NCBI RefSeq assembly: GCF_030811555.1
Contig: NZ_JAUSQZ010000001.1
Span: 2,232,001 to 2,296,000 of the forward strand
Source of the DNA: Kineosporia succinea
Lineage (GTDB): Bacteria > Actinomycetota > Actinomycetes > Actinomycetales > Kineosporiaceae
Length of the DNA stretch: 64,000 bases
Direction: 5' to 3'
Shown: positions 1 through 34,661 of the stretch, piece after piece
Numbering within the stretch: the first letter of the stretch is position 1
How the letters are laid out: every line of letters starts with the position of its first letter
The notes under the pieces: generated by a model
Seen by the model: the letters and a program-made list of their open reading frames with translations, nothing else
What the model was told of the DNA's origin: nothing
Database searches by the model: none
Made by a program: the position numbers and the translations under genes

Positions 1-1
1 C

Positions 2-1554: not shown

Positions 1555-2340
1555 CTAGGCCAGGGTCAGCGCCGTACAGCGCACGCCCCCGCCGCCCTTG
1601 GCCAGTTCGGTGGTGGCGAGCTCCACCACCCGCAGACCCCGCTCACGCAGGATCCCGGCCAGACGAGGCGCCCCCTGCGCCATGGTCACCGTGCGGCCGT
1701 CGCTCACGAGGTTCAGCGCGAACCGGTCCGCCTCCTCGAGCGACACCTCGATCAGGTCCAGCCCGAGGCCCCGTAGCCGGTCGGCGCTGGGGGTGTCCAG
1801 CGCCTCCGGGCAGTAGGCCACGGTCTGCGCGTCCACCACACCGATGGCCAGATCGAGGTCGTACCAGCGGGGCCCGGAGGTCTGCAGGGGTACCACCGCG
1901 CATCCCAGCTCGGCCTCCAGCACCGGCAGCATCCGCCGGTCGGTGCGCTGCCCGTGGCCGGCCAGCAGCAGGTCACCCACCGCCAGCGCGTCACCCTGCC
2001 CGCTGAAGGCGTAGGGCGCCGGGACGATGTCGTAGCCGCTCGCGCGTAACCACTCCTCGGCGTAGGGGATCTCGGCCGCCCGCTCACGCGGGGGCCGGCC
2101 GAGCACCGCCCGGCGGCCTCGCACCACGGCCACGTTCGCGGTGAACGTCATGTCCGGGCACTCGGGGGCGGACGGCAGGTGCTCCACCTTGCGGCCCGCC
2201 CCGAGGTGCGCCGCCACGATGGCCGCGTGTTCCGTCAGCACGGCCTGCGGGTCGGGCTGGACCTCGCGGTGCATGTACGGGTTGATCTCGTAGTCGACCC
2301 GGAAGTGGGCCGTGTCACACATCAGGAGTTCGGTGTTCAC
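1555..2340 (-). CDS. DDAH/amidinotransferase-superfamily protein with a substituted catalytic His
   Basis: A 261-residue protein of the guanidine-modifying (pentein) superfamily, closest by eye to dimethylarginine dimethylaminohydrolases. Visible motifs are PDMTFTANVAVV (62-73), SGQGDALAVGD (113-123) and the C-terminal nucleophile motif GGGVRCTALTL with Cys255. In the family the general acid-base His sits in a Tyr-His-Leu-Asp context; here the corresponding stretch reads Trp-Tyr-Asp-Leu-Asp, so position 161 is Asp. Hydrolysis of methylarginine is therefore doubtful; it may be inactive, or act on another amidine or hydrazine-type substrate. The GTG start (2338-2340) overlaps the stop of the upstream gene in a GTGA tetranucleotide. 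The same frame stays open upstream, but that part is antisense noise inside the neighbour. Confidence 0.75.
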   Translation of the reverse strand: MNTELLMCDTAHFRVDYEINPYMHREVQPDPQAVLTEHAAIVAAHLGAGRKVEHLPSAPECPDMTFTANVAVVRGRRAVLGRPPRERAAEIPYAEEWLRASGYDIVPAPYAFSGQGDALAVGDLLLAGHGQRTDRRMLPVLEAELGCAVVPLQTSGPRWYDLDLAIGVVDAQTVAYCPEALDTPSADRLRGLGLDLIEVSLEEADRFALNLVSDGRTVTMAQGAPRLAGILRERGLRVVELATTELAKGGGGVRCTALTLA

Positions 2341-3863
2341 CGCTCGCCCTCCCCACCGGCCGGGGCGACCCGCACGCTGTAGAGATCGAGTTCCCGGAAC
2401 GGGTTGGGCTGCACGTCGCGCAAGCGCGGTGACCAGGCCGAGAGAGTGCTCTGGTACCAGACCGGGACCACCGGCATGTCGTCCAGAATGGCCCGCTCGG
2501 CCTGCTGGTAGAAGTCCCAGGCCTGCTCCTGGCTGGGTGCGGTGTCGGCCGCTGTCAGCAGCCGGTCGACGGCGGCGCTGCTGTACCGGCCGACGTTGTC
2601 CGTGGCCCCGGTGCGGAACATCGGGCTGAGGAAATTCTCGATCGAGGGGTAGTCGGCGATCCAGCCGGAGCGGAACACCGCGGTCACCTCCTGGGCGTTC
2701 AGCTTGCGCCGGAACTCGCCGAGGGTCGGGATCGGCTCGAACCGGCACGGCACGCCCAGGGTCTCCGAGATGGAGGCGCAGACCTCCTCCATCCACGGGC
2801 CGTTGGGCGAGTCGACGTTCGAGGTGAGCACGATCTCACCGGTGAACCCACTGTCCCGGAACAGCTCCCGCGCCCGCTCGGGCGAGTACCGGCAAAGCTC
2901 GCCCCCCTGGTCGTCCGCGCGTCCGGAGACCGCGGGCGGCACCAGGCCGTCGGCCGGCACCTGGTGACCGGAGAAGATCCGGTCGATCAGCCGGACCCGG
3001 TCGATGGACATCGAGATCGCCTGCCGCACACGACGATCCGCGTACCGACTGTCGTAGAGCGGGAAGGAGACCGTCTGGATGCCGAGATAGGTGCGGTCGT
3101 GCGTGCGCCCGGGCAGCTCCCGCTGGTACCGGTCACCGTCGAGGGCCCAGAACGGGGTGACGTCCAGATAATCCAGATCCCCGGCCACCACGTCGTGGTA
3201 AGCGGTGCCCAGGTCGGCGTAGATCCGGAACTCGACCCCGTCGATCTCCGGCCGGTCGTCCCCGGCGTAGCCCTCGTAACGTTCCAGGCGGATGTACTTC
3301 TCGGTCTCCCGGCTGACGAACTGGAAGGCACCGTTGCCGACCGGGTGGGCCTCGAAGGCCTCCCGGTCGTCGAAGAAGACCCGCGGCAGGGGGAAGAACG
3401 CCCCGCAGCCGAGCGTGACCGGGAACTCGGCGAACGGCTCGGCCAGGGTGACCACGAAGGTGAGGTCGTCGACCACCCGGAGCCCAGTCAGCTCCGCCTG
3501 CGTCGCGTCGGGCGCGCTGACCTCGGCGAAACCGTCGATGTGGGCCAGAAAGGTGGACGCCTGCATGCGGTTCGGACCGAATGCGGTGTAGTTCCAGGCG
3601 TCCACGAAGCTGCCGGCGGTCACCGGGGTGCCGTCGTGGAAGGTCCAGCCCGGCTTCAGGGTGATCGTGAAGACGCGGGAGTCCTCGGTCGTGATCGACT
3701 GGGCCACGGCGTTTCTCGGGTGTGCGTCCAGGGGGTCGTAGGAGACCAGGCCCCGGAACAGCGCGCCGATCACCTTGACCCCGCCGGACTCCGTGGTGTG
3801 CCCGGGGATCAGGGCGTTCTCCGGTTCGGTGCCGTGGTAACTGATGACTGAGCTGGGTGACAC
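2337..3863 (-). CDS. Solute-binding-protein family 5 (OppA/DppA-like) fold without signal peptide
   Basis: 508 residues with clear family-5 peptide-binding-protein features: VISYHGTEPENALIPGHT at the N-terminus, TEDSRVFTITLKPGWTFHDGTPVTAGSF, GNGAFQFVSRE, VRQAISMSIDRVRLI and the C-terminal ILDDMPVVPVWYQST. Ordinary members begin with a lipoprotein signal and Cys; here translation starts directly at the mature domain. A very good ribosome site (GGAGG, 4 nt from the GTG at 3863) and a stop codon of the previous gene 24 nt upstream leave no room for a missing signal. It is therefore predicted to be cytoplasmic, and no permease or ATPase genes accompany it. A role in binding or scaffolding a pathway intermediate is inference only. 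Confidence 0.8.
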   Translation of the reverse strand: MSPSSVISYHGTEPENALIPGHTTESGGVKVIGALFRGLVSYDPLDAHPRNAVAQSITTEDSRVFTITLKPGWTFHDGTPVTAGSFVDAWNYTAFGPNRMQASTFLAHIDGFAEVSAPDATQAELTGLRVVDDLTFVVTLAEPFAEFPVTLGCGAFFPLPRVFFDDREAFEAHPVGNGAFQFVSRETEKYIRLERYEGYAGDDRPEIDGVEFRIYADLGTAYHDVVAGDLDYLDVTPFWALDGDRYQRELPGRTHDRTYLGIQTVSFPLYDSRYADRRVRQAISMSIDRVRLIDRIFSGHQVPADGLVPPAVSGRADDQGGELCRYSPERARELFRDSGFTGEIVLTSNVDSPNGPWMEEVCASISETLGVPCRFEPIPTLGEFRRKLNAQEVTAVFRSGWIADYPSIENFLSPMFRTGATDNVGRYSSAAVDRLLTAADTAPSQEQAWDFYQQAERAILDDMPVVPVWYQSTLSAWSPRLRDVQPNPFRELDLYSVRVAPAGGEGER

Positions 3864-3887: not shown

Positions 3888-4388
3888 TCAGCCGGCGATG
3901 CTCGGGGAGATGGCGTGGAAGCGGCCGTGCAGGAAGACCAGCGCGGGCGCCCTCGGCCCCTCACCCATGGCCACCACCCGGCCCACGACCAGGGTGTGGT
4001 CACCCACGTCGAAGCTGTCCCACAGCTCGCACTCGATCCAGCTGGCGGCGTCGAACACCAGGGCCCCGGTGGCTCTTCCCGGGCTGGCCGCCAGCGCGGC
4101 CAGGGTGCCCGCCCGGGTCTGGCGGTCCTTGGCCAGCAGGCCGGCGACCTCCTTGTCCCGGTGGTCGAGGATCGAGACGGCCCACTTCTTGGCGGCCAGC
4201 AGGTCGGCCAGGAACACCGAGCCGATCCGCAGGTACAGCGACACCAGCGGCGGGTCCAGCGACGCCGAGGTGAGCGAGTTGACCGTGACCGCATCGTGCC
4301 GGCGGCCGTCGGTCTCGTCGCTGAAGGTGGTGGCCACGCACACGCCGGTGGCGAAATTGCGCATGAGCACTCGTAGGTCGGGTTGCAT
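3888..4388 (-). CDS. NAD(P)H:flavin oxidoreductase (flavin reductase-like FMN-binding)
   Basis: 166 residues, the normal size for the short-chain flavin reductases of two-component monooxygenases. Visible features are the N-terminal LRVLMRNFATGVCVATT, the DAVTVNSLTSASLDPPLVSLYL core and the C-terminal GDHTLVVGRVVAM with FLHGRFHAI. The role is to supply reduced FMN or FAD to a partner oxygenase. The acyl-CoA-dehydrogenase-fold monooxygenase at 11978-13180 is the only obvious partner in the cluster. ATG at 4386-4388 is chosen because of the upstream GGAAGGGG; a longer frame reads back into the upstream oxidase. It lies 25 nt after the oxidase stop. Confidence 0.88.
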   Translation of the reverse strand: MQPDLRVLMRNFATGVCVATTFSDETDGRRHDAVTVNSLTSASLDPPLVSLYLRIGSVFLADLLAAKKWAVSILDHRDKEVAGLLAKDRQTRAGTLAALAASPGRATGALVFDAASWIECELWDSFDVGDHTLVVGRVVAMGEGPRAPALVFLHGRFHAISPSIAG

Positions 4389-4413: not shown

Positions 4414-5763
4414 TCAGGGCACCTGGTCGCCGGCGAACACCCGGTCGGGGTCCCAGCGGCGTTTGATCTCGGACAGGCGTGCGGCATTCGGGCCGTAGTA
4501 CGCCGTGCGCCAGTCGTCGAGGTCGGGGTCGGCGAAGTTGAGGTACGACGCGTCCGGGGCGAACTGGCCGGTCTCCTCGTGCAGCTCCTTCAGCCAGTCC
4601 AGGTTCGCCCGCACCGCTTCCGGTGACTCGCCCGGCAGCCAGGAGGTGTCGAGCGAGAGCAGGAACTGAACCTCGCGGTGCGGGAAGGCACTGTCCCGCA
4701 CCGGGACGTCGCCGATCGCGCCGCCCCAGGCGAACAGGGCGGCCCCGGCCCCGTCCGGATTCGTGCCCCCGGGCCACTTCTCGAGAGCACGGACGAGTGT
4801 TCGCAGGCCCTCCTCGGACAGCGGCTCCGGTGTCGCCCGGGTGCGCACCGCGAAGGCACCACCCGCGCTCTCGTGCCGGAGGTACTCCACCGCGTCGGCG
4901 TACTCCTGGTCGGCGATGTCCACGTGCCGCGGGCGGGCCGCGGTCATCGCCGGGGCCAGCAGCCGGCGCAGCTCGGCGGCCGGGCCGAGGTGCTGACCGA
5001 TCACCGAGACCACACCGTCCCGGCCGGAGGCGCGGCTGATCCCGATGCGGGCCGAGAACTCCCGCGGCGCGACCCGCATCACCTCCTGCATCACGGCCAG
5101 GACGTCGACGGCCCGGTCCCAGTCCCACAGCAGCAGGCACGTCGACATCGGCGGAGCCGGCCGGGCCTGGAAGGTGAAGGACGTGTTGACGCCGAAGTTG
5201 CCTCCGCCTCCTCCCCGGCAGGCCCAGAAGAGGTCCTCGTTCTCGTCCTCACTGCAGGTCACGGTGCTGCCGTCGGCCAGCACCAGGTCGGTCGACACCA
5301 GGTTGTCGCAGGTCAGGCCGATGGCCCGGGACACCACCGAGACGCCGCCCCCGAGCGTCAGCCCGCCGATCCCGACGTCGTCGGAGTTGCCCAGCGGGAG
5401 CAGCAGATCGTGCTCGACCATGGCCGCGTACAGAGCACCCTGGCGAGTGCCCCCACCGACCGTGACCCGGTTCGTCCTCACATCGACCCGGATCTGGTCG
5501 AGGCCGCCGAGGTCCAGCACCAGACCGCGGTTGACCGAGCGGCCCGCGTAGCTGTGACCTCCGCCCCGGGCCACGAACGGCACGCCGTGCTCCCGGGCCC
5601 AGCCGATGGCGGCGCTCACGTCGTCCGGCCCGGTGACGGAGAGCACCGCCTCGGGCCGGACGTCGCGGAATCGCTCGTTGACCGAGACCGTCCGCTCCTC
5701 GAAGCCGTCGTCACCGGGGCGGCGTACCCGCCCCGCGACGAGCCCCTCCAGCGGGTGGGTCAT
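4414..5763 (-). CDS. Berberine-bridge-type FAD-linked oxidase
   Basis: 449 residues. The PCMH FAD-binding domain has GGGHSYAGRS with His70, the residue that carries 8-alpha-linked FAD in this family, then VTVGGGTRQGALY and GIGGLTLGGG (131-140). The C-terminal BBE domain shows YLNFADPDLDDWRTAYYG and RLSEIKRRWDPDRVF. In bicovalent members a Cys precedes the VGxGG turn; the equivalent residue here is Ser127 (NSDDVGIGG), so FAD is predicted to be attached only through His. The enzymes oxidise alcohols, amines or hydrazine-like centres with O2; the substrate here is unknown. ATG (5761-5763) overlaps the preceding stop as ATGA. Confidence 0.88.
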   Translation of the reverse strand: MTHPLEGLVAGRVRRPGDDGFEERTVSVNERFRDVRPEAVLSVTGPDDVSAAIGWAREHGVPFVARGGGHSYAGRSVNRGLVLDLGGLDQIRVDVRTNRVTVGGGTRQGALYAAMVEHDLLLPLGNSDDVGIGGLTLGGGVSVVSRAIGLTCDNLVSTDLVLADGSTVTCSEDENEDLFWACRGGGGGNFGVNTSFTFQARPAPPMSTCLLLWDWDRAVDVLAVMQEVMRVAPREFSARIGISRASGRDGVVSVIGQHLGPAAELRRLLAPAMTAARPRHVDIADQEYADAVEYLRHESAGGAFAVRTRATPEPLSEEGLRTLVRALEKWPGGTNPDGAGAALFAWGGAIGDVPVRDSAFPHREVQFLLSLDTSWLPGESPEAVRANLDWLKELHEETGQFAPDASYLNFADPDLDDWRTAYYGPNAARLSEIKRRWDPDRVFAGDQVP

Positions 5764-6107
5764 GCCGGGACCTCCTCCAGGTACGAGACGCCGGTGGCGG
5801 CGTGTTCCCCGAAGCGTTCCCACTCCTCGCGCAGCAGCAGGCTCCCGTCGGGCCGCCGCTGCGGCACGTTGACGGTCGCACCGGAGATGACCTCACCGGT
5901 CTCGAGCACCAGCGTGTAGGCCAGGCGCAGCGTGCCGTCCGGGCCGCAGGTCCCGGTGATCGTGCCCCGGCGCACCGGGCCACCGGTGAACTCGGCCCAG
6001 ACCAGGTCGCCGGACTGCCGGTACCGGGACACGACGCCGTCACCTCCCCCTGCGACCCGGAAACGTCTTCCCTCGTAGCTGATCTCGCCGATCTCCGCCG
6101 TGCTCAC
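5760..6107 (-). CDS. Small conserved beta-rich protein (often mislabelled N-acetylglutamate synthase)
   Basis: 115 residues with alternating short strands: ISYEGRRFRVAGGGDGVVSRYRQSGDLVWAEFTGG, RRGTITGTCGPDGTLRLAY, SGATVNVPQRRPDGSLLLREEWERF. The pattern resembles a widespread single-domain family that databases often call N-acetylglutamate synthase; I see no GNAT acetyltransferase motif, so that label should not be trusted. A small lipocalin- or streptavidin-like barrel that binds a ligand is plausible but unproven. GTG start; the start overlaps the ATP-grasp stop as GTGA, and its own stop overlaps the oxidase start as ATGA, so it is translationally coupled on both sides and is probably part of the pathway. 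Confidence 0.7.
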   Translation of the reverse strand: MSTAEIGEISYEGRRFRVAGGGDGVVSRYRQSGDLVWAEFTGGPVRRGTITGTCGPDGTLRLAYTLVLETGEVISGATVNVPQRRPDGSLLLREEWERFGEHAATGVSYLEEVPA

Positions 6108-7402
6108 TCGTCCACGTCCAGCACCCCGGCCGGCATCTCCAGGAGCGCATTGCGGTCCTTGGGCTCCACGTCCTCGGCGATCACCACCACCGCGGCCGCG
6201 GCCTCGGTGAGCCTCTGCTCGACCGCCTCCGGGTCGTCCCCCCGCACGATCACGAAGGAGTGCCGGGCGATGTAGCCGCCCGGCGGCAGCCGCAGAGTGG
6301 TCCCGGGCTCGACCATGGGGGACGCCTGCACGAGCCCGGGGGTGTCGGTGGGCACCTCGACCGAGCGCACCAGGCAGTCGCGATCGGGGTAACCGAAACG
6401 GATCCCGACCGCGCCCAACCGGTTCCGGGTGAACTCCGGGCGCTCGCCCAGGGAGACGTCGACCAGGACCTCCCCGGAGTCGATACCGGTGGCCAGACGA
6501 CCCAGGAACGGGATCAGGTCACCGCCGACCCGGCCATTGATCTCGATGATCAGCGGGCCGCGCTCGGTCAGGCGAACCTCGGAATGGGTGATGCCGCTCT
6601 CGATCCCGAGCACCTGGTGGGCCCGCGACAGGGTGTTCAGCAGGTCCTGGTCTTCCAGCAGCGGGTCGGCGCTGTCGACGACGTGGCCGGTCTCCTCGAA
6701 GTACGGGGGCAGGCCGGTGGTCTTGCGCGCGATGAACAGGGGCAGGTACTCACCCTTGTGCACCGCACCGTCGATGCTGATCTCCGGCCCGGTGGCGTAC
6801 TCCTCGACCAGGGCGCCGCCTCGGAAGGGCTCGTCACCGATCTGGCTGGCGCCGTCGGCGACCCGGAAGGCCTCGCGCAGTTCCTCCTCGTCGCGGGCCA
6901 GGACCACTCCCATGCTGGCGCCCAGCGCCCGGGGCTTCACCACCACCGGGTAGCCGATGCGGGTCGCCTCGGCCACGGCCTCGGCCGGGTCGGCCGTGAA
7001 CGCGAAACCCGGCTGCAGCAGCCCGGCCGCGGTCAGCCGGGTGCGGGCGCTGAACTTGTCGCGACAGCCCTCGACCCCGGGCAGGCTCAGCCCCGGGACC
7101 CCGAACTCGGCGGCCAGATGAGCGGCCGGCTGCACCAGCGGCTCGTCCCAGCACATCACGCCGACGATGCGGTAGCGCTGGGCGAACTCCCGGGCGGTGG
7201 AGGCCAGCAGCTCGTGGTCGAACACGTTGATCACGGTGATCTCGGCGAAGTACTCGTGCTGCCAGGTCGGCTGCAGGTTGTTGATCAGGATCAGCTCGTG
7301 CCCGGCCTTGCGGGCCCGGGCGGCGGCCGAGCTGAGCAGGTAGTCGCGGTAGAGCTTCAGACCGCTGCCGATGACCAGCAGCGCGGTACGGGGGGTGCTC
7401 AT
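6104..7402 (-). CDS. ATP-grasp carboxylate-amine ligase
   Basis: 432 residues with the three-part ATP-grasp layout. An N-terminal Rossmann-like part (ALLVIGSGLKLYRDYLL; GVMCWDEPLVQPAAHLAAEFGVPG) is followed by the ATP subdomain with VVVKPRALGASMGV (Lys156) and the catalytic core ITHSEVRL (Glu275) and LIIEINGRVGGD (Glu287, Asn289). Enzymes of this kind activate a carboxylate as acyl phosphate and join it to an amine, as in carnosine synthase-like and dipeptide ligases. In this cluster the natural inference is that it couples a hydrazino acid or its derivative to an amino acid. ATG at 7400-7402 overlaps the upstream stop (ATGA). Confidence 0.87.
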   Translation of the reverse strand: MSTPRTALLVIGSGLKLYRDYLLSSAAARARKAGHELILINNLQPTWQHEYFAEITVINVFDHELLASTAREFAQRYRIVGVMCWDEPLVQPAAHLAAEFGVPGLSLPGVEGCRDKFSARTRLTAAGLLQPGFAFTADPAEAVAEATRIGYPVVVKPRALGASMGVVLARDEEELREAFRVADGASQIGDEPFRGGALVEEYATGPEISIDGAVHKGEYLPLFIARKTTGLPPYFEETGHVVDSADPLLEDQDLLNTLSRAHQVLGIESGITHSEVRLTERGPLIIEINGRVGGDLIPFLGRLATGIDSGEVLVDVSLGERPEFTRNRLGAVGIRFGYPDRDCLVRSVEVPTDTPGLVQASPMVEPGTTLRLPPGGYIARHSFVIVRGDDPEAVEQRLTEAAAAVVVIAEDVEPKDRNALLEMPAGVLDVDE

Positions 7403-8538
7403 GACGCCGTCCTTCCGGTTGAACAGTGGGATCCCCGCCGGGGCGGGCGCAGCGCGGCGACGATCTGGTCGGCGATCGCGGGGGCGGTGCGGAACCCGTC
7501 CCCACCGCTGGCGGAACGGGCCCAGACCGCGGGACCGACCCGCGCGAGGTGGGCGCCACCGCTGAGCGCGTCGACCGCGTAGTGACAGTGCTTCACGGCG
7601 GTCACCCGGTAGCGGTGCCCGTCCGTGACCATTCCGGAGTCCAGAATCCGCTGACTCCAGTATATTTCGTCGTTCTCCTCGACATGATCGGGACTGGGCA
7701 CCTCGCGGCAGGCGACATCGGTGCTGACCTTCAGCAACGTGCCGTCGCCGGAGGGCATCAGCCAGGCGCGCCCGTCCGCCCCGATCCGCCCGGCGCTGGG
7801 CGCACAGTCCCACCACCGCCGCAGGTCGGGTGGAGGACGGAGGAAGACCACGGTCTGGCGGTAGAGGACGGTGGGTGGATCGACCAGCGCCCCCGACCAC
7901 GGGCCACCGGCGACGAGCACCAGGTCCCCGCGTTCGACGCTGCCGTCGGCCAGCACGACCGCCGCCTCGTCGGTGTCCACCGCGTCCACCGACGACCACG
8001 GCCGCAGCCGCACCTCGGGCCGCCCCGCCAGCCAGCGGGCCGCCGACGAGAGCACGCGGTCGGCCAGGAGCACCCCGGCGTACGGTTCCAGCACGCCACG
8101 ACTGCCCCGGGGAAATCGAATGTGCGGATAGCGTTGCGGTTCAACCACTTCCACCCCGATCCCGGCCGCCGCCGCGATGATCGGAGCCCGTTCGGCCTCC
8201 TGGGCCGGCCAGGCGCTCACCACGCCGACCCGACGGTAGAAGCCCGCCCCCGGAGCCGTGCCGCACAGCAGCGTCTCCAGACGCGTCCATTGCTCGTGCA
8301 GTGACGAGGCCTCCCGGCTGCCCCGCGGGTCACGCAGGTCGAGTGCCCTCACCGCCCGGTGCTGGTCGAAGGAACTGGACGCGGGGTGCGGGATCGGCCC
8401 GCGGTCCAGCAGCGTCACCTGGTACCCCTCGAGCACGCACCGGACCGCGGTGATCAGCCCGGTGACGCCCGCGCCGACGATCACCACCCGGCGCGAGAGG
8501 GACGTCGCCGGGGCCCGGGTCGGAGTCCGCGTGGGCAT
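7399..8538 (-). CDS. FAD-dependent oxidoreductase, DAO/glycine-oxidase family
   Basis: 379 residues. The dinucleotide fold is RRVVIVGAGVTGLITAVRCVLEGYQVTLLDRG (GxGxxG at 22-27); a middle substrate domain and a C-terminal FAD-contact segment (HLARVGPAVWARSASGGDGFRTAPAIADQI) follow. In the known hydrazine pathways the DAO-type enzyme (Spb39 in s56-p1, Tri27 in triacsin, as I recall) oxidises the N6-(carboxymethylamino)lysine intermediate and releases the hydrazino acid. Position directly after the MetRS-like gene, with zero spacing (ATG at 8536-8538, TAG at 8539-8541), supports the same job here. Amino-acid or sarcosine oxidation is the alternative. Confidence 0.85.
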   Translation of the reverse strand: MPTRTPTRAPATSLSRRVVIVGAGVTGLITAVRCVLEGYQVTLLDRGPIPHPASSSFDQHRAVRALDLRDPRGSREASSLHEQWTRLETLLCGTAPGAGFYRRVGVVSAWPAQEAERAPIIAAAAGIGVEVVEPQRYPHIRFPRGSRGVLEPYAGVLLADRVLSSAARWLAGRPEVRLRPWSSVDAVDTDEAAVVLADGSVERGDLVLVAGGPWSGALVDPPTVLYRQTVVFLRPPPDLRRWWDCAPSAGRIGADGRAWLMPSGDGTLLKVSTDVACREVPSPDHVEENDEIYWSQRILDSGMVTDGHRYRVTAVKHCHYAVDALSGGAHLARVGPAVWARSASGGDGFRTAPAIADQIVAALRPPRRGSHCSTGRTAS

Positions 8539-10080
8539 CTACCCGGCCACCGTTCCGCTCAGCCGCGGCAGCGGTACCGGCGTGATCTCGGCCGGACCCT
8601 CGCCCGTGGGGATGCTCAGGTCGGCCAGGGCCCCGGCCGCCAGGTCGATCAGCAGCGGCGCCCCGCAGCGGGCGATCACGTCCACCTGGTGGCAGAAGTC
8701 GCCCTCCTGACCGGGAGCCACGTCCCAGTCCTCCAGCCGGCCCAGCTGCTCGCCCAGAGTCTCCGCGATCCGGGTGAGGCTGAAGTACTCCAGCTCGTAC
8801 CCGGCGGCGAACCGTTTGACGATCCGGGCAGCGGCCTCCCGCGAACGCGCCGAGACCGGCAGCGCGCCCCGGCCGGTGAAGGCGTCCACCTTCTCCGCCA
8901 CCCGGTTCCACGGCCCGATCAGGCGCGCCGAGGTGACCCGCTCGAGCGCGGCCCGGGTGAAGTCGGTGCGCTGGCTCTCCGGGCTGGTCGCGGCCAGATG
9001 GAACCGGGCCACGTCCCGCGGCACCTCCGCCACCAGGTCCCGGCCCCAGATCAGGTGCCGCCGGCTGGTGGAGAACTTGGCGTTCTCCAGCTCGTAGAAC
9101 TCGTTGGTGACGAACTCCTCGGGCAGCAGGTAGCGGCCCTTGGCGGCCAGGAGCATCCCGACCATCGCGACGGCGAAGGGGTAGATGTTGTCGAAGCCGA
9201 GGAAGTAGACCACCCGGGTACCCGCCCCGGTGAGCCAGAGCTCGTCCTCCGTCACGTCGAGCCCCCGGTTCCGGGCCGACAGCTGGGCGCAGTAGATGCT
9301 CCACGCCGCCGGCTCGGCGTTCGGGTTCACCACCTGCCCGGCCACCTCGGGGAACGGCGCCGGGATGCCCCAGGAGACCGGATAGGTGACGGGATAGTCG
9401 GGCAGTGGCCGGGACAGCATCTCCTGCAGAGCCTGGGCCATGTGCGGGCGCATCGCCCGGCCGTGCTCGGCGAAGTGCGCCCGGATGCCCTCCCGGTAGC
9501 GCTCGAGCGGCAGGACGAACACCTGGGCCGGGCGCAGTTCGACCGGATCGTTCTCGTCGAGGGTCGACCGCGGCTCGAGCAGGTCCCCCGGTGCGACCGG
9601 GTTGCCGCAGCTCTCGCACAACCCGGCACACCCGTCGGCCAGGCAGACCGGGCAGCCGCCCCGCACGAACCCGTCCACCAGGTACTCCCCGGTGGCCGGG
9701 GAGTACGGGAAGAGCAGCGTGCGCAGCTCCAGGGCCCCGCCGGCGTGCAGGTCCTCCAGGAACCGGCGAACCGTCTTGACGAAGGCGTCCTCGTCGCCGG
9801 TGAAACCGTCGACAGCGATCCCCGCCGCGGCCAGCGTGCCCTCGATCTGCTCGCCCGAACTCGTCACCAGGTCCTGCGGGGTGGTGCCGAGCCGCCGCGC
9901 GGTGGTCACCACGTAGCTCGAGGTGTCCTGGAACCCGCTGGCCAGTAATACTTCCCGGCCGGTGGCGCGAAGCCAGCGGGCGTACACGTCGGCGCCCAGG
10001 AACGGCCCCGCCAGGTGACCGAGGTGCAGGTCACCGTTGGCGGTCGGGGCCGGGGAGATGATCAGCGTGCGCCTGCTCAT
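8539..10080 (-). CDS. Methionyl-tRNA synthetase-like enzyme, predicted hydrazine synthetase subunit
   Basis: 513 residues with the full class I catalytic core: HLGH at 19-22, a zinc knuckle with Cys143, Cys146, Cys155 and Cys158, the MetRS landmark SWGIP (236-240), and KFSTS at 335-339 as KMSKS loop. The C-terminal helical part is short and there is no tRNA-binding EMAP-like domain. A duplicate MetRS inside a tight operon with an N-hydroxylase and a cupin matches hydrazine synthetases, where this domain activates an amino acid as aminoacyl adenylate and esterifies the N-hydroxy group before N-N bond formation. A housekeeping metG is unlikely in this setting. ATG overlaps the cupin stop (ATGA). 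The identity of the activated amino acid (glycine or glutamate in known systems) cannot be read. Confidence 0.88.
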   Translation of the reverse strand: MSRRTLIISPAPTANGDLHLGHLAGPFLGADVYARWLRATGREVLLASGFQDTSSYVVTTARRLGTTPQDLVTSSGEQIEGTLAAAGIAVDGFTGDEDAFVKTVRRFLEDLHAGGALELRTLLFPYSPATGEYLVDGFVRGGCPVCLADGCAGLCESCGNPVAPGDLLEPRSTLDENDPVELRPAQVFVLPLERYREGIRAHFAEHGRAMRPHMAQALQEMLSRPLPDYPVTYPVSWGIPAPFPEVAGQVVNPNAEPAAWSIYCAQLSARNRGLDVTEDELWLTGAGTRVVYFLGFDNIYPFAVAMVGMLLAAKGRYLLPEEFVTNEFYELENAKFSTSRRHLIWGRDLVAEVPRDVARFHLAATSPESQRTDFTRAALERVTSARLIGPWNRVAEKVDAFTGRGALPVSARSREAAARIVKRFAAGYELEYFSLTRIAETLGEQLGRLEDWDVAPGQEGDFCHQVDVIARCGAPLLIDLAAGALADLSIPTGEGPAEITPVPLPRLSGTVAG

Positions 10081-10457
10081 CGTGTCGACTCCTGATGCCG
10101 GGCCAGGAACTCACCGGACATGTCGGCGTCCCACCAGATCCCGTAGTACTCGAAGTCGTCACCGCCGCGGTTGACCACCTTGTGGAGGCTGCCCGGCAGC
10201 AGGTGCACGATGTCCCCGGCCGCGAAGGGACTCTCCTGGCCGTCGACGACGAGAGTCGCGGAACCCTTCATCGCGATGAAGATCTCGTACTCGTGATGGG
10301 CGTGCGCGGTGGACTCGTCACCCGGTCGGAGCACACACCAGGCCCCCTCGAACGGCGCGTTCAGCACCGGCCAGGGCAGCAGCCGCTGGGAGTCCAGCCC
10401 GTAGGCCTGAACCAGGTTGTCACGGTCCAGTTTCCGGATCTCGAACACGGCGCTCAC
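10077..10457 (-). CDS. Zinc-cupin, predicted N-N bond forming partner of the MetRS-like enzyme
   Basis: 126 residues, a single cupin. Motif 1 is AHAHHEYEIFIAMKG with His52, His54 and Glu58; motif 2 is LLPGSLHKVV with His92, so the usual 3-His-1-Glu metal site is complete. In Spb40-, Tri28- and PyrN-type hydrazine synthetases a zinc-binding cupin is fused to the N-terminus of a MetRS-like domain and carries out the N-N bond rearrangement. Here the two halves are separate genes in the same order, overlapping by 4 nt. The GTG start (10455-10457) overlaps the stop of the N-hydroxylase (GTGA). A generic sugar or ligand-binding cupin would look similar in isolation; the context makes the call. Confidence 0.86.
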   Translation of the reverse strand: MSAVFEIRKLDRDNLVQAYGLDSQRLLPWPVLNAPFEGAWCVLRPGDESTAHAHHEYEIFIAMKGSATLVVDGQESPFAAGDIVHLLPGSLHKVVNRGGDDFEYYGIWWDADMSGEFLARHQESTR

Positions 10458-11737
10458 ACCTCCACGACCGCGTCGGCGGCCCGGCGGTCGAGCAGGTCGT
10501 CGGTGATGTCCTGCGACCGGTGGGCCAGCACGCTGATCAGCGAGTCGGCGATACCGTGCGTGGCCTCGTTCACGCCCTGCAGGTAGATCGCGCCCCAGGC
10601 CGACTCGCCCAGGTCCACCCGATATCGGCGGCTGACGGTGATGTCCCCCAGTCCCAGGCGCTCGCCGAGCCCGCGCACCAGACCCGGCATCCGGGAGTCG
10701 TAACCGGTTCCCAGGAAGACCATGTCGCAGCGCATCGACTCGACCTTGTCGGTCTTGCGGTCACGCAGGTCGAGCACGATGTCGACACCCTCGGTGCGGG
10801 CAGCCACCACCTCGGTCAGCGCCCGCACGCTGGAACGCTCCCGGCCCAGGCGCTTCTGCTGGTAGAGCATCATGTACATCTCGTCGAGGAACGGCTCGGC
10901 CAGCCCGGCGTAGTTGGTCACGTGCATCTCCTCGAGCACACGCTTGCGGGTGTCCGCCGGCATCTCGTGGAAGTCGTCGACGAACGAGGGGTAGAACAGC
11001 TCGTTGACGAACTTGCTGGTCTGGTAGTTCTGCAGCGCGATCGAGCGCACCAGCATGGTCGGCCGGCTGTTCGGGCTGTCCTGGTGCAGGGCCATGAACA
11101 TCTCGGCCGCGCTCTGCGCCCCACCGACCACGACGGGCCGCAACGGCAGCTCCTCCGCGGACATCTGGGCGATGCGGGTGCTGTACTGCGAGCTGTGGAC
11201 CAGTCGCTCGGCCGGCAGGTCGCGGAACACCTCGGGCACGTACGCGTCACGGCCGGTGCCGACCACGAGGTCGCGGCAGGTGATGGTGTCCCCGCCGGAC
11301 AGGGTGACGATCCAGCCGTCGATCACACCGTTGTCGGCGTAGCGCGGCGCGATCGCCTCGGTCCGGGCGTTGTAGCGGATCTGGACGTGCTCCAGGCCGT
11401 CCGCGACCCACTGCTGGTAGGCCGACAGCTGCCAGCGGTAGGGGTTGAAGGTGGCCAGGTTGACGAAGGCGTCGAGCTCACCCTGCTGGTGCAGGAAGCT
11501 GAGGAAGGAGAACCGGCTGCGCGGGTTGCGCAGGGTCACCAGGTCCTTGAGGAAGGAGACCTGGCTCCGGGCCCAGGGCAGCATCAGGTTCCGCTGCCAC
11601 TTCACATCCGGGTGCTGCTCGATGATCAGCGTGTTCTCGGCCAGTCGAACCGCGTCGGACTCCTCGAGCGCGACGGCGAGCGCAAGGTTGGCCGGGCCGG
11701 CCCCGATCAGCAGCACGTCAACTTCGTGAACAGTCAC
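10454..11737 (-). CDS. L-lysine/L-ornithine N-monooxygenase (IucD/SidA/PvdA family)
   Basis: 427 residues. The FAD site is VDVLLIGAGPANLALAVALEE (GAGPAN at 12-17); the NADPH site is PVVVGGAQSAAEMF (205-212 region); the family C-terminal signature appears as VFLGTGYDSRMPG. These flavoenzymes hydroxylate the side-chain amine of lysine or ornithine. There is no siderophore synthetase, acyltransferase or NRPS nearby, whereas the next two genes are cupin and MetRS-like, so the predicted product is N6-hydroxylysine for hydrazine assembly. The GTG start at 11735-11737 has a strong GAGGTGG site 4-5 nt upstream and is the first gene of the overlapping run. Confidence 0.9.
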   Translation of the reverse strand: MTVHEVDVLLIGAGPANLALAVALEESDAVRLAENTLIIEQHPDVKWQRNLMLPWARSQVSFLKDLVTLRNPRSRFSFLSFLHQQGELDAFVNLATFNPYRWQLSAYQQWVADGLEHVQIRYNARTEAIAPRYADNGVIDGWIVTLSGGDTITCRDLVVGTGRDAYVPEVFRDLPAERLVHSSQYSTRIAQMSAEELPLRPVVVGGAQSAAEMFMALHQDSPNSRPTMLVRSIALQNYQTSKFVNELFYPSFVDDFHEMPADTRKRVLEEMHVTNYAGLAEPFLDEMYMMLYQQKRLGRERSSVRALTEVVAARTEGVDIVLDLRDRKTDKVESMRCDMVFLGTGYDSRMPGLVRGLGERLGLGDITVSRRYRVDLGESAWGAIYLQGVNEATHGIADSLISVLAHRSQDITDDLLDRRAADAVVEV

Positions 11738-11977: not shown

Positions 11978-13180
11978 TCAACCTTTCCGGGGGTCTCCGA
12001 CGAGACCCAGCGAGAGCGCGAAAGATGGCTTGCCACCGAGGAGATACGCACCGGCCGACTGCAGGATGCGATCCTGGGCGACCACGTGCTGGCACATCGT
12101 GCTGGTGTCGCGCAGCCAGCGGTCCATCGGCGACGGCTGATAGATGGACGACGTCTGCATCAGGTCGTACAGCCGGGTCACGATCGACCGGGCGGTCCGG
12201 AAGGCGTGCCGGCGAGAGAGCGGCAGGGCAGCCCGGTCGACGGGGTCGAGATCGTCGAGAGTCCCTCCGCCGGAGAGAACCTGGTGCTGGAGGCGGAGCG
12301 CGGCGTAGACCGCGTGCCGGGTCGCCGCGAAGTCCGCCTCGCACTCGGCGATCGTGACCTGCGTGCGGTAGTCGCCGACCATTCGCCCCTTGGCGACGAT
12401 GCTCTCACGGGCGAAGTCGAGCGCGGCCCGGGCGACTCCGAGCGGGATGCCGGGCATGTTGCGCATGTGCACCTCGGGCTGCGCCAGCGGCCCCTCGCCG
12501 TTGCGCACGGTGTCGAAGGTGACGACGCGCCCCTCCGGCACGAAGACGTCGCTGATCACGTAGTCGCAGCTGCCGCTGCCGGCCAGCCCGGTGGTGTGCC
12601 AGGTGTCGACGACCTCGACGTCCGAGCGGGGGACGAAGAACAGCTTGGAGTCGTGCGCCCCGTTCTCGTCGAGCAGCGGTTCACCGTCCTGGAACAGGAA
12701 CGCACCCGAGACCACCCAGTCGGCATGCGTGATCCCGCTGCCGAACTGCCAGCGCCCACTCAGCCGGTAGCCGTCAGGCTCCAGCTCGGCCCGGCCGGTC
12801 GGGAAAAGCAGCCCCGCCGTGACCATGTCGATGCTCGTGAACATGGCCTTGGCGACCGACTCATCGAGGAACTGGGCGTAGAGACCGGAGTCCGAACCGA
12901 TCATCGCGCACCAGCCGACGGCAGCATCACCGTACGACAGCGCCTCGATCACCTCGGTCTGCTGCAGCGAGTTCAGCTCCGGACCACCCCAGCCCCTACT
13001 GAATCCCATTCTGAAAACACCCGTGGAGCGCAGCATTTCAACCACATCGCCCGGAAGCCGGCGATTCGCCTCGATCTCCGTCGCGCGTTCACGCACGATC
13101 GGGGCCAGCGCCCGGGCCCGTTCGAGAATCTCGGCGAACGGTGATGTCGGCTCCACCGGGCCGGACTGGATCTGTGACAT
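11978..13180 (-). CDS. Group-D flavin monooxygenase (acyl-CoA dehydrogenase fold)
   Basis: 400 residues with the acyl-CoA dehydrogenase fold but the features of reduced-flavin-dependent oxygenases such as HsaA, DszC and related N- or C-hydroxylases: RGWGGPELNSLQQTEVIEALSYGDAAVGWCAM, LSGRWQFGSGITHADWVVSGAF and WHTTGLAGSGSCDYVISDVFVPE. There is no obvious catalytic Glu context of beta-oxidation enzymes. It would need reduced flavin from the reductase at 3888-4388. In N-N pathways such enzymes are plausible oxidants of hydrazine or amine nitrogen, which is inference here. ATG at 13178-13180 follows GAAGGGA; a longer frame exists but has no family similarity. Confidence 0.85.
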   Translation of the reverse strand: MSQIQSGPVEPTSPFAEILERARALAPIVRERATEIEANRRLPGDVVEMLRSTGVFRMGFSRGWGGPELNSLQQTEVIEALSYGDAAVGWCAMIGSDSGLYAQFLDESVAKAMFTSIDMVTAGLLFPTGRAELEPDGYRLSGRWQFGSGITHADWVVSGAFLFQDGEPLLDENGAHDSKLFFVPRSDVEVVDTWHTTGLAGSGSCDYVISDVFVPEGRVVTFDTVRNGEGPLAQPEVHMRNMPGIPLGVARAALDFARESIVAKGRMVGDYRTQVTIAECEADFAATRHAVYAALRLQHQVLSGGGTLDDLDPVDRAALPLSRRHAFRTARSIVTRLYDLMQTSSIYQPSPMDRWLRDTSTMCQHVVAQDRILQSAGAYLLGGKPSFALSLGLVGDPRKG

Positions 13181-13362: not shown

Positions 13363-14193
13363 TCAACGGGCGAAATAGCCGTTCAGGGTGCCGAAGTCGA
13401 TACCCTCGGCCAGCTCGTCGTAGCTGCCCTTGCTGAGCAGCTCGATCGCCGAGCGCTGAGCCACGGCGTAGGCCGCCTGGGCCAGCGCGGTGCCGAGACT
13501 GACCCGGCGCACGCCGACCGCCCCGAACTCGGAGACCGTGGGCGCCCCCGGCCCGGCCATCACGTTGACCGGCAGCGACACCGCCTTGACGAGAGCGCTC
13601 AGCACGTCCAGGTCGACCAGGCCCGGCACGAAGAGGCTGTCCGCACCCGCCTCGGCGTACACCGCGGACCTGGCGACCACATCGTCCAGACGCCCTTCCG
13701 GCGCACCGATGCCGAACAGGAAAACGTCGGTGCGGACGTTGATCACGAGCTCCGGCAGGCCGGCGGCAACCGCCGCGGCGCGGGCGGCGGACAGCCGGGC
13801 AGCCTGCTGCGCCGGCTCGAACAGCGGGCCTCCCGGGGCCTTCGAGTCTTCGAGGTTGACGCCGACGGCACCCGCCTCGATCGCCCCTGTGACGGTCTTG
13901 GCCACGTCTTCGGGAGACTCGCCGTAGCCGCCCTCGACATCGGCGGTCACCGGCAGGTCGACGCTCGACGCGACCCGGCGGATCGCGTCGACGCTCTCGT
14001 CACGGGACAGGCCGTGCCCGTCGGTACGACCGAGCGACCAGGCCACGCCACCGCTGGTGGTGGCGATCGCCTTGGCCCCGGCCGCCGCGACCACGGCCGC
14101 GCTGCCGGCGTCCCAGGCGTTGGGCAGGACGAAGGTCCCGCTCTCGTGAAGGGACCGCAGGGTCTTCGCCTTGGCCTGCTGCGTGCTGGTCAC
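13363..14193 (-). CDS. Isocitrate lyase/PEP mutase family protein
   Basis: 276 residues, a TIM-barrel member of the PEPM/ICL superfamily. Features seen: FVLPNAWDAGSAAVVAAAGAKAIATTSGGVAWSLG, VTADVEGGYGESPEDV, GAVGVNLEDSK and PELVINVRTDVFLFG. The family joins or splits C-C or P-C bonds next to a carboxylate (oxaloacetate, methylisocitrate, phosphonopyruvate). Most short members like this one, lacking the KKCGH motif of isocitrate lyase, are of unknown specificity and occur widely outside phosphonate clusters. Two adjacent GTG codons (14191-14193, 14194-14196) could start it; the inner one has better spacing to AAAGGAG. Its link to the hydrazine genes is not established. Confidence 0.8.
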   Translation of the reverse strand: MTSTQQAKAKTLRSLHESGTFVLPNAWDAGSAAVVAAAGAKAIATTSGGVAWSLGRTDGHGLSRDESVDAIRRVASSVDLPVTADVEGGYGESPEDVAKTVTGAIEAGAVGVNLEDSKAPGGPLFEPAQQAARLSAARAAAVAAGLPELVINVRTDVFLFGIGAPEGRLDDVVARSAVYAEAGADSLFVPGLVDLDVLSALVKAVSLPVNVMAGPGAPTVSEFGAVGVRRVSLGTALAQAAYAVAQRSAIELLSKGSYDELAEGIDFGTLNGYFAR

Positions 14194-14317
14194 CACGTGT
14201 GCTCCTTTTGTGTTGCGGCTCGGTGAAACTCGGCTCCGAGGGACCACCGGATGCTACCGGCCGGCCTTTGAAGCCGATCGAAAAGTTGCTTCTAAGTGCG
14301 GATCTCGAGTCGACGGC

Positions 14318-15625
14318 TCAGTCGTGCACCTTCTCGGCGGGCCGCTCGTCGAGCGGATCCCCGCCGGTCACGGCCACCGGCTCGGTCGGGCGCAGGTGGC
14401 GGACACTCAGCGAGAGGAGTGCAGCGCCGATGCTCAGGAAGCCGGCCACGTGCCAGACCGGCGCGTAGTGCCCCAGGCTGTCGCGGGCCAGCCCGGCCGC
14501 GGCGGCGGCGATCCCGGCCCCCAGCTGGTGGGAGGCGAAAACCCAGCCGAAGACGATGCCGGCCGACATACCGAAGTGCTCGCGGCACAGGGCCACGGTC
14601 GGCGGCACGGTGGCCAGGAAGTCCATGCCGTAGAAGACGACGAAGACCAGCATCGGCCCGCTGATCGACTGCCCGAACAGGCTGGGCAGCACCAGCAGCG
14701 AGACGCCCCGCAGCACGTAGAACGTGGCCAGCAGCAGACGCGGGTCGATGCGGTCGGTGAGCCAGCCCGAGAACACGGTGCCGAGCAGGTCGAACACCCC
14801 GATCAGGGAGAGCAGACCGGCCGCGGCCACACTGGGCATCCCGGCATCCATCGCCGAGGGGATGAAGTGGGTCTGGATCAGGCCGTTGGTGCTGGCCCCA
14901 CAGATCGCGAAGGCCAGGGCCATCAGCCAGAAGGCGGGCTTGTGGGCCGCGTCGTACAGGGTGCGCACCGCGAGACGGGCCGCGCTGCGGGTCGGCTCGG
15001 GCCGGGGCTCGATCTCGTCCGCCCCGTACGGCGGGATCCCCAGGTCGGCCGGGTACTCGCGGAAGAAGAACAGGATGAGGGGCACCGTGGACAGTGCGAC
15101 CAGCGAGACCACGGCGGCCGCCGACCGCCAGCCGCCGGTCGACTGGGCCAGCGCCGCCACCAGCGGCAGGAAGAGCAACGACCCGGTGGCACTGCTGGCC
15201 GACAGGATCCCGTCGACCAGGCCCTGACGCGTGCGGAACCAGCGGGTGGTGATGGTGGCGACGAAACCGAGCGAGATCGCCCCGGCCCCGAGCCCGACCA
15301 TCACGCCCCAGAGCAGCACGAGCTGCCAGGCCGCCGTCATGAACAGGGTCAGGCCACTGCCGAGGGCGATCAGGGTCATCGCCCCGGCCGTGATCCGGCG
15401 CACCCCGAACCTCTCGGTCAACGCCGAGGCGAACGGTGCCGTGATCCCGTACAGCGCCATGTTCACCGACATGGCCAGGCCCATGGTGCCGTTCGACCAG
15501 CCGAACTCCTGCTTGAGCGGGTCGACCAGCGCCCCCGGAGTAGATCTGAAGGCGGCCGCCCCGAGCAGAGCCACGAAGCTGATGCCCGCAATCGCCCAAG
15601 GCCAGGCGCGCTTGTCCAGAGTCAT
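14318..15625 (-). CDS. Major facilitator superfamily transporter
   Basis: 435 residues with twelve predicted membrane segments, starting WAIAGISFVALLGAAAF, and a cytoplasmic central loop (residues about 195-230) rich in Glu, Pro and Arg. The loop-2 motif reads LTERFGVRR, and FRTRQGLVDGILSAS follows. The pattern resembles the oxalate/formate-antiporter-like and monocarboxylate-like MFS group. It may export the cluster product or move a small organic acid connected to the next gene. It lies upstream of the PEP-mutase-like gene on the same strand with a gap of about 120 nt, and is divergent from the AraC-type regulator. Confidence 0.85.
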   Translation of the reverse strand: MTLDKRAWPWAIAGISFVALLGAAAFRSTPGALVDPLKQEFGWSNGTMGLAMSVNMALYGITAPFASALTERFGVRRITAGAMTLIALGSGLTLFMTAAWQLVLLWGVMVGLGAGAISLGFVATITTRWFRTRQGLVDGILSASSATGSLLFLPLVAALAQSTGGWRSAAAVVSLVALSTVPLILFFFREYPADLGIPPYGADEIEPRPEPTRSAARLAVRTLYDAAHKPAFWLMALAFAICGASTNGLIQTHFIPSAMDAGMPSVAAAGLLSLIGVFDLLGTVFSGWLTDRIDPRLLLATFYVLRGVSLLVLPSLFGQSISGPMLVFVVFYGMDFLATVPPTVALCREHFGMSAGIVFGWVFASHQLGAGIAAAAAGLARDSLGHYAPVWHVAGFLSIGAALLSLSVRHLRPTEPVAVTGGDPLDERPAEKVHD

Positions 15626-15695: not shown

Positions 15696-16664
15696 ATGCC
15701 CGTTCATCGCGTCGCAGTCCTGGCCCTCGACGACGTGACGGCATTCGATCTTGGCATGCCCACGCAGGTCTTTCACGCGGCATTCGTGCACCCGGACCGC
15801 CGCTTCTACCGGGTCGAGGTCTGCACCCCCGGCGGGCGCCCGGTGCGCAGCTCGGCCGGTTTCACGGTGGTGCCGGAACGCGATCTGAGTCTGCTCGGCG
15901 AGGTCGACACGGTGCTGGTCTCGGGCGTTCACTACAGCTCGCAGGTCATGATCGACGGCACGCTGGACGAGTCCGTGACCCAGGCCCTGCTCACGGCGTC
16001 CGCGCGGGGCGCGCGCATCATGTCGATCTGCACCGGCGCGTTCGTGCTGGCCGCGGCCGGGCTGCTGAACGGCCTGCGGGCCACCACCCACTGGGCGCAC
16101 GAAGGCAGCTTCCGCCAGCTCTTCCCGCACGTCGAACTCGACCCCGACGTGCTCTTCGTCGACGACGAGCCGGTGCTCACGTCGGCCGGCGTCGGGGCCG
16201 GCGTCGACCTGTGTCTCCAGGTCATCCGCGACGACCACGGCAGCGAGATAGCGAACATGGCCGCCCGGCGCTGTGTGGTGCCGCCCTGGCGCCCGGGTGG
16301 CCAGTCGCAGTTCATCATCCGCCCGGTGCCGGACGAGACCGACACCTCCACGGCCGCCTCCCGGGCCTGGGCCCTGGAACATCTCGACCAGTCCCTCGAC
16401 CTGCGCCAGCTGGCGGCGGAGGCGCGGATGAGCGTGCGCACCTTCACCCGCCGGTTCCGCGAGGAGACCGGCCTCAGCCCGGCCAAATGGATCACCCAGC
16501 AGCGGATCGACCGGGCCCGGCAGCTTCTGGAGACCACCGATCTCCCGATCGGCCAGGTCGCCCGGCACGCCGGATTCGGCACCGGCGCCGCGCTGCGGCA
16601 GCAGATGAGCGCGGCTCTGGGCATCGCCCCGTCGGCCTACCGCACCATGTTCCGCTCGGCCTGA
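15696..16664 (+). CDS. AraC-family regulator with GlxA/DJ-1-like domain
   Basis: 322 residues. The N-terminal part (about 1-185) is a DJ-1/PfpI-like (GATase1) domain with GARIMSICTGAFVLAAAGLLNGLRATTHWAH, including the nucleophile-elbow Cys of this group. The C-terminal part holds two AraC helix-turn-helix motifs: LDLRQLAAEARMSVRTFTRRFREETGLSPAKW and LPIGQVARHAGFGTGAALRQQMSAALGIAPSAYR. Such proteins act as cytoplasmic transcription activators. It is divergent from the MFS gene, with 70 nt between the starts, so it most likely controls the MFS/PEP-mutase-like unit. ATG start at 15696. Confidence 0.9.
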   Translation: MPVHRVAVLALDDVTAFDLGMPTQVFHAAFVHPDRRFYRVEVCTPGGRPVRSSAGFTVVPERDLSLLGEVDTVLVSGVHYSSQVMIDGTLDESVTQALLTASARGARIMSICTGAFVLAAAGLLNGLRATTHWAHEGSFRQLFPHVELDPDVLFVDDEPVLTSAGVGAGVDLCLQVIRDDHGSEIANMAARRCVVPPWRPGGQSQFIIRPVPDETDTSTAASRAWALEHLDQSLDLRQLAAEARMSVRTFTRRFREETGLSPAKWITQQRIDRARQLLETTDLPIGQVARHAGFGTGAALRQQMSAALGIAPSAYRTMFRSA

Positions 16665-34648: not shown

Positions 34649-34661
34649 CCCGGCGCCCCAT

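Follow-up and report, generated by a model that had tools for sequence, protein, structure and literature searches.

Living organisms seldom form nitrogen-nitrogen (N-N) bonds, which are useful in drugs. The closest described relatives of the system reported here are hydrazine synthetases that combine a cupin with a protein resembling methionyl-tRNA synthetase (MetRS). When the MetRS-like enzyme of Rhodococcus jostii RHA1 was overexpressed with the cupin RHS1 and the RHA1 hydroxylase, a hydrazine of N6-hydroxylysine and glutamate was formed (PMC8664883). Stand-alone cupin/MetRS pairs have already been described, including that of albofungin (PMC8664883; PMC11705231). Several characterized family members use lysine and glycine, and DAO-type cleavage is known for Spb39 and Tri27 and, with other regiochemistry, for Apy10 (PMC11705231). 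Here we analyzed a 64,000-nt stretch of the Kineosporia succinea genome (the window; contig NZ_JAUSQZ010000001.1, positions 2,232,001 to 2,296,000), in which a cassette of the stand-alone kind very likely heads a natural-product operon. No loading genes of the nonribosomal peptide synthetase (NRPS) type were recognized among the 23 window proteins scanned with Pfam.

The core genes and their conservation

The four core genes occupy positions 11737 to 7399 on the minus strand. Gene J (10454 to 11737) encodes a flavin N-hydroxylase of a diamino acid, ornithine or lysine (Pfam Lys_Orn_oxgnase, 6.2e-84). It is followed by gene I (10077 to 10457), a stand-alone cupin predicted to be the zinc-dependent rearrangement enzyme that forms the N-N bond (Cupin_2, 6.2e-13), and by gene H (8539 to 10080), a stand-alone MetRS-like, amino-acid-activating enzyme with HLGH and KFSTSR motifs (tRNA-synt_1g, 1.6e-57). 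The last is gene G (7399 to 8538), a DAO-family FAD oxidase predicted to cleave a C-N bond of the hydrazine intermediate (DAO, 1.3e-21). J and I overlap by 4 nt, as do I and H, and H and G abut with 0 nt between them. The span and the junctions agree with those given in a sequence-only reading of this DNA, which had proposed a hydrazine-forming cassette in an uncharacterized operon.

H is distinct from the housekeeping enzyme. A separate MetG, 31% identical to H, is encoded elsewhere in the genome, and H falls far below every NCBIfam MetRS cutoff (best, 208 versus 553 bits). A pattern scan for H relatives was run on a collection in which each of 84,980 species is represented by a single genome, and the best 80 of 269 stretches were used; all 80 fetched loci came from actinomycetes. 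In a quick tree of 93 rows (4 MetG and 89 non-MetG), the MetG and MetRS-like rows are separated with an SH-aLRT support of 100. H thus did not group with housekeeping MetG, the placement that the sequence-only reading had named as contrary to its proposal. H lies within a clade of 85 rows, 81 of them from actinomycetes and 4 from Deinococcus, Pantoea, and Klebsiella plasmids. The RHA1, Mesorhizobium, Xenorhabdus, and Robbsia rows and two MetG rows sit on long branches, and because of these the exact joins of RHA1 and three other rows are unsure.

Two signatures follow the same division. PTxNGxLHxGH is present in all 89 non-MetG rows and FYxLxxxxFSTSxxH in 85 of them; both are absent from the MetG rows (0/4 each). 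The RHA1 MetRS-like row carries both. In addition, Tyr15 of MetRS is replaced by Thr in 85/85 rows of the H clade. The nearest solved relatives of H are PDB entries 9l8v and 9vq4, which are named methionine-tRNA ligase and contain the FYLLDGEKFSTGRKH stretch. Both are probably hydrazine-type MetRS-like enzymes, judging by their sequences; we found no paper for either entry.

In the cupin, the Glu and the distal His matching Glu69 and His103 of RHS1 are kept in 80/80 other cupin rows. Residue E69 of RHS1 and its counterpart E56 of PyrN are essential, and by the numbering of the same paper the RHS1 motif reads DxHxxxE (PMC8664883). The form HxHxxxE is found in 78 of 81 cupin rows, the exceptions being RHS1, Robbsia, and Nostoc; because the alignment has a one-residue gap beside it, we assigned the first two metal ligands from their spacing. 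Since this motif is common to cupins, it serves as a necessary rather than a specific test. The solved structures nearest to cupin I are 4rd7 (5.5e-43) and plu4264 (4.5e-34), followed by RHS1 itself (5uqp, 5.4e-8). With an RHS1 fragment as the query, three members of the H/I clade were among 12 matched plasmid records.

Gene presence around the 80 loci was scored by tblastn (E 1e-10) and a crude GC-frame caller, and the counts are lower bounds because many loci end at contig edges. A J homolog occurs in 80/80 loci, and in 77 it lies on the same strand no more than 1.2 kb upstream. The cupin was detected in 71/80 loci (just before H in 52) and G in 61/80 (directly after H in 57). As a control, the 14 cluster proteins were compared with 20-kb regions around three MetG genes, and only H itself found a match (3/3).

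These data bear on another explanation, in which H is a divergent MetRS paralog, such as an antibiotic-resistant MetRS or a tRNA-dependent amide-forming enzyme, the cupin is of a sugar type, and no N-N bond is made. H does have a MetRS fold and MetRS motifs. The cupin, which is placed by motif and similarity, has one weak match to a sugar enzyme, below the NCBIfam cutoff. However, the distance of H from all MetRS cutoffs, the invariant Tyr15-to-Thr change, the linkage to an N-hydroxylase and a cupin across loci, and the signatures that H has in common with the RHA1 enzyme, itself a participant in N-N formation (PMC8664883), argue against this explanation. We regard it as highly improbable.

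The window therefore holds a MetRS-like protein distinct from MetG, the cupin motif, and a co-encoded N-hydroxylase, the combination by which a stand-alone cupin/MetRS hydrazine synthetase is recognized. The proposal of a hydrazine-forming cassette is supported by the tree, by the signatures shared with RHA1, and by the presence of J in every locus. Four observations weigh on the other side. Long branches separate the H clade from RHA1; the cupin motif is generic, and cupin I is far from RHS1 (36 bits); J groups apart from the RHA1 hydroxylase; and G was undetected in 19 of 80 loci, with a count of 14/31 in one class of H pocket (D/W, below), some of these loci ending at contig edges. Given this patchiness, some members of the family probably do without DAO cleavage.

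What the data show directly is the identity of the genes, the conservation of their catalytic motifs and neighborhood, and their placement in families; the reactions are assigned by homology. J would hydroxylate ornithine or lysine at the side-chain nitrogen. H would activate a second amino acid with ATP and esterify it onto the N-OH group, and cupin I would rearrange this ester at its zinc site to give the N-N bond. Bond formation by H and I is predicted to be ATP dependent and tRNA independent. G may then cleave the hydrazine oxidatively or dehydrogenate it.

Comparison with known systems

The PDB sequence of the RHA1 cupin placed its gene on pRHL1, and we assigned the remaining RHA1 genes from their positions in the annotated copy of Rhodococcus DK17. 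RHA1 and the window share a stand-alone zinc cupin, a stand-alone MetRS-like enzyme, a co-encoded N-hydroxylase, the two H signatures, and the conserved Glu and His of the cupin. They differ in that RHA1 uses N6-hydroxylysine and glutamate and has a saccharopine-dehydrogenase-like gene (PMC8664883). The RHA1 hydroxylase also belongs to another clade, the amino acid pocket of its MetRS-like enzyme reads AANR rather than QNNF, and the cupins are only distantly alike.

The Spb38-40 set (s56-p1) and the Tri26-28 set (triacsin) have an N-hydroxylase, a cupin/MetRS function, and a DAO-family oxidase, as the window does. By the descriptions of these sets, however, the cupin and MetRS parts are fused in them, and here they are two genes (10457 to 10077 and 10080 to 8539). 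PyrN and ForJ (pyrazomycin and formycin) are likewise cupin/MetRS hydrazine synthetases, but PyrN is fused, uses glutamate, and is paired with the saccharopine-dehydrogenase-like PyrL, whose role in pyrazomycin has been suggested, instead of a DAO (PMC8664883). No PyrL-like gene was found among the 23 proteins scanned. The sequence-only reading had called the window genes the exact set of s56-p1, triacsin, and pyrazomycin. The kinds of enzyme do agree with those of s56-p1 and triacsin, an N-hydroxylase, a cupin/MetRS function, and a DAO, but the identity of the sets is not supported, with cupin and MetRS unfused and PyrL missing from the scanned proteins.

Albofungin, with separate MetRS-like, cupin, and N-hydroxylase genes (Afn8/Afn9/Afn18), resembles the window in this respect (PMC11705231). 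It differs in being a polyketide cluster with an asparagine-synthase-like hydrazine transferase, Afn14; none was recognized among the scanned proteins. On the basis of these comparisons, we file the window genes as a stand-alone hydrazine synthetase set and not as the s56-p1, triacsin, or pyrazomycin type.

The sequence-only reading had also held that the tailoring genes match no known cluster. In the open-license literature we found no characterized cluster of this makeup, but much of the gene set recurs in other genomes. The cluster is not unique to the window and belongs to a broad family: the enzyme set is of a known kind, and, as far as our searches show, its product class is uncharacterized.

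Substrates of the hydroxylase and the MetRS-like enzyme

The sequence-only reading had taken N6-hydroxylysine to be the nucleophile, and this was not established. Among solved structures, J is most similar to the ornithine hydroxylase PvdA (250.7 bits) and then to the lysine hydroxylase MbtG (199.5 bits). For the RHA1 lysine hydroxylase the order is reversed (MbtG, 161.5 bits; PvdA, 125.8 bits). Score order is nonetheless a weak guide to substrate, because the RHA1 enzyme finds its three best matches (219.6 to 193.9 bits) in other chains, at least some of them diamine hydroxylases, and because it scores the ornithine enzyme KtzI (130.7 bits) level with a lysine enzyme (130.0 bits). In the hydroxylase tree, J falls in a clade of 20 next to a group of PvdA, SidA, MbtG, KtzI, and a Xenorhabdus enzyme, and far from RHA1; it is nearer to siderophore-type hydroxylases than to the RHA1 enzyme. 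That group mixes ornithine and lysine enzymes, with MbtG (lysine) and KtzI (ornithine) as sisters. Ornithine is a live alternative to lysine as the substrate of J, and the similarity scores lean tentatively toward it. Other hydrazine-type cassettes, on Xenorhabdus pXT29 (L099) and in Robbsia (L105), adjoin a diaminobutyrate aminotransferase gene, which suggests N-N chemistry based on diaminobutyrate at those loci.

We read the amino acid pocket of H at the positions that we take to be Asp52, Trp253, Ile297, and His301 of Escherichia coli MetRS. The pocket is Q-N-N-F in the window and 22 loci and Q-S-N-F in one locus. It is H-(H/D)-A-F in 26 loci, D-W-N-W in 31 loci, and A-A-N-R in RHA1. Three accessory genes, described below, vary with these classes. 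Flavin reductase C is present in 17/23 Q loci, 0/31 D loci, and 1/26 H loci; monooxygenase K in 19/23, 0/31, and 20/26; and L, of the phosphoenolpyruvate (PEP) mutase family, in 18/23, 8/31, and 0/26, respectively. This pattern is in keeping with second amino acids, and hence products, that differ between the classes. However, the pocket classes also follow the tree, and common descent alone could therefore give the correlation. We set aside naming the second amino acid from the pocket, which requires enzymes of known specificity.

Two more specific versions of the hydrazine synthetase reading fix the substrate. In one, the pathway runs exactly as with Spb38-40, with N6-hydroxylysine from J, glycine as the substrate of H, and release of hydrazinoacetic acid by G, so that the product is another hydrazinoacetate-derived compound. 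The enzymes are of the same kinds, DAO follows MetRS directly in 57/80 loci, and several characterized members use lysine and glycine, as noted above (PMC11705231). The J scores point the other way, and the window class of pocket has Gln and Asn at the Asp52 and Trp253 positions. In addition, a known hydrazinoacetate-based diazo route that proceeds to a hydrazone employs an adenylase, a carrier protein, a GNAT protein, and a C45 peptidase (PMC13061610). None of these had a Pfam match among the 23 window proteins, in which a short carrier protein could be missed. We consider this version possible but somewhat doubtful.

In the other version, no small hydrazino acid is released. The N-N bond stays on the diamino acid, and G acts on the conjugate as a dehydrogenase that leaves the ornithine chain in place, as in a labeling-based proposal for pyridazomycin. 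That compound is believed to derive from ornithine, oxaloacetate, and glycine, and its enzyme was listed as unknown in 2020 (PMC7347517). The J scores, the intact-motif ArgZ-like penteins of many relatives, and the recurrence of L are in keeping with such a route. Against it, no gene for a pyridazine ring was recognized, and the window's own pentein, A, has no catalytic His. The genome also has another ArgZ-like gene at a different place, whose product shares 53% identity with a typical copy from the clusters, and such genes may therefore be common. We judge this version to be unlikely. Pyridazomycin itself was set aside as a minor rival for the product; no producer genome was compared.

Accessory genes and distribution

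All operon proteins have strong Pfam assignments except A, whose match is weak, and E, which has none. G and F, F and E, and E and D are each coupled by 4-nt overlaps, gaps of about 25 nt precede C and B, and B and A again overlap by 4 nt. Gene F (6104 to 7402, minus strand, like all the genes down to A) encodes an ATP-grasp enzyme with an LAL_C2 domain, resembling L-amino acid ligases (ATP-grasp_4, 1e-18; PDB 3vot, BacD). It would form an amide with a further amino acid. A longer open reading frame (ORF) at 6104 to 7999 was rejected, as the likely start is the ATG at 7402, coupled to the DAO stop. F (at least 38% identity) was found in 60/80 loci.

Gene E (5760 to 6107), found in 58/80 loci, encodes a 115-aa protein of no described family. 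NCBIfam gave no match at E 0.01 for any of 39 members scanned, and Pfam at E 0.1 gave five member matches to three unrelated families, all weaker than 0.01. Its AlphaFold prediction is an eight-stranded barrel (mean pLDDT, 92.9). With a limit of E 0.001, Foldseek matched only five zebavidin chains in the PDB (best, 4.1e-4; TM, 0.65; 15% identity), and the 50 rows shown are all taken up by proteins of the avidin type; an avidin-like beta-barrel is therefore predicted. Gene D (4414 to 5763; FAD_binding_4 and BBE), present in 39/80 loci, encodes a BBE-type FAD oxidase. In Saccharothrix carnea, E and the BBE oxidase form one ORF of 571 aa (L009, 13975 to 15690), and this fusion suggests that they work together. 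D with E, and K with C, may oxidize the product. K (11978 to 13180, minus strand), located 240 nt upstream of the core operon and present in 39/80 loci, is an HsaA/acyl-CoA-dehydrogenase-like oxygenase component of a flavin monooxygenase (Acyl-CoA_dh_2; HsaA-like in NCBIfam, below the cutoff; nearest PDB protein, Rv3094c). C (3888 to 4388; Flavin_Reduct, 9.3e-28), in 18/80 loci, is its likely reductase partner.

Gene B (2337 to 3863; 2.5e-58) encodes an SBP_bac_5 binding protein and was found in 10/80 loci. Signal peptides were judged by eye. None is present in the window copy, as the sequence-only reading had said, and only 8 open codons lie upstream of the start. Five close relatives (L009, L010, L013, L015, and L016) likewise show no signal; their reading frames continue upstream for 26 to 193 codons, with no signal-like stretch in the part shown. 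Five others, 55 to 59% identical (L014, L025, L031, L033, and L083), have a lipoprotein-like signal. The export signal thus seems to have been lost in one subclade and kept in sister clusters.

Gene A (1555 to 2340), detected in 36/80 loci, encodes a pentein like arginine dihydrolase and DDAH (PDB 6jv0, Sll1336, 1.4e-25; DDAH_eukar, weak, 2.4e-6). The window copy and 6 close copies read WYDLD instead of FYHLD, a change of what is presumably the catalytic His to Asp, and keep the Cys that we take to be catalytic; in the remaining 40 of the 47 copies aligned, the His is intact. The change is common to copies of the Streptomyces/Kitasatospora type, which also have a second, typical paralog nearby. 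A role for A as an arginine dihydrolase that simply supplies ornithine is weakened by this change and by the second ArgZ-like gene of the genome.

Upstream of K, also on the minus strand, are L (13363 to 14196; PEP_mutase, 8.9e-80), a PEP mutase/isocitrate lyase-superfamily enzyme and probable cluster member found in 26/80 loci, and M (14318 to 15625; MFS_1), an MFS transporter found in 12/80. M is a possible member, as is N (15696 to 16664, plus strand; Pfam), a DJ-1/AraC-type regulator found in 7/80. Convergent to the operon is a protein that we read by eye as regulator-like (1 to 1510, plus strand; the ORF begins about 145 nt outside the window). Its family occurs in 30 of 81 clustered stretches, window included, and Pfam gave no match for 38 to 1510. 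A scan for upstream promoters led nowhere. Short tandem repeat arrays lie at 219 to 415, 34648 to 35082, 35432 to 35635, 36054 to 36228, and 46343 to 46687. The first is a PGVV repeat inside the regulator-like gene, and the others lie within or close to low-complexity ORFs; for two of these ORFs, Pfam gave no family.

The relatives in other genomes rule out a cluster private to K. succinea. The nearest clusters are those of S. carnea, Nocardiopsis, and Actinomadura. At E 1e-75 the distribution is patchy, with a match in 1/13 genomes of the family (the window genome) and 6/394 of the class (window genome included). In Streptomyces ipomoeae, S. stelliscabiei, and S. scabiei (L017, L023, and L028), the cluster is kept and a second ATP-grasp gene and a second pentein gene are present. 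A search with H at E 1e-20 finds two loci in the S. scabiei genome, that of the cluster and a MetG-like one. From the order of the locus tags and the lack of a recognized NRPS gene, we judged the cluster locus to be distinct from the s56-p1-like, NRPS-like region SCAB_19761-19891 (PMC8914351).

Relatives are also found on plasmids. On Deinococcus ficus pDFI1 (L090), genes for a hydroxylase, cupin, MetRS-like protein, FAD oxidoreductase, ATP-grasp enzyme, and binding protein stand in a row, and BBE and PEP mutase homologs are present. Two Pantoea plasmids (L089 and L103) have a similar set with an MFS gene between the DAO and ATP-grasp genes; their DAO and ATP-grasp proteins are weakly similar to G and F, and the gene table of L103 lists no hydroxylase. 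A Klebsiella variicola record (L107) has the hydroxylase, cupin, and MetRS-like genes and ends after the last of these. The plasmid operons thus share the core and, in L089, L090, and L103, a DAO or FAD oxidoreductase, an ATP-grasp enzyme, and a binding protein. They differ from the window in their DWNW pocket and in having Peripla_BP_6 (Deinococcus and Pantoea) rather than SBP_bac_5 proteins, without an evident N-terminal signal. The L090 match to Peripla_BP_6 is just below the Pfam cutoff, and L103 was outside that scan. By plasmid typing, L089 is conjugative, L090 and L103 are mobilizable, and L107 is non-mobilizable.

A wider view is speculative, and we hold it at low confidence. These clusters could form a large, unrecognized family of NRPS-free hydrazine pathways from ornithine rather than lysine, using at least three different second amino acids (pockets Q/N, H/(H or D), and D/W). 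Their reactive hydrazine or hydrazone would be handled by dedicated cytosolic binding proteins, namely the avidin-fold E with the BBE oxidase and recruited solute-binding proteins whose export signals were lost, and some members would possibly make pyridazomycin-like heterocycles.

The recurrence of the hydroxylase/MetRS-like core in the window, in 80/80 loci with accessory genes that are partly shared, and on plasmids of two other phyla points to a common product class. An unfused cupin/MetRS pair with a pocket unlike that of RHA1 may broaden the reach of enzymatic hydrazine synthesis, and protein E, of no known family, gains a concrete biochemical setting.

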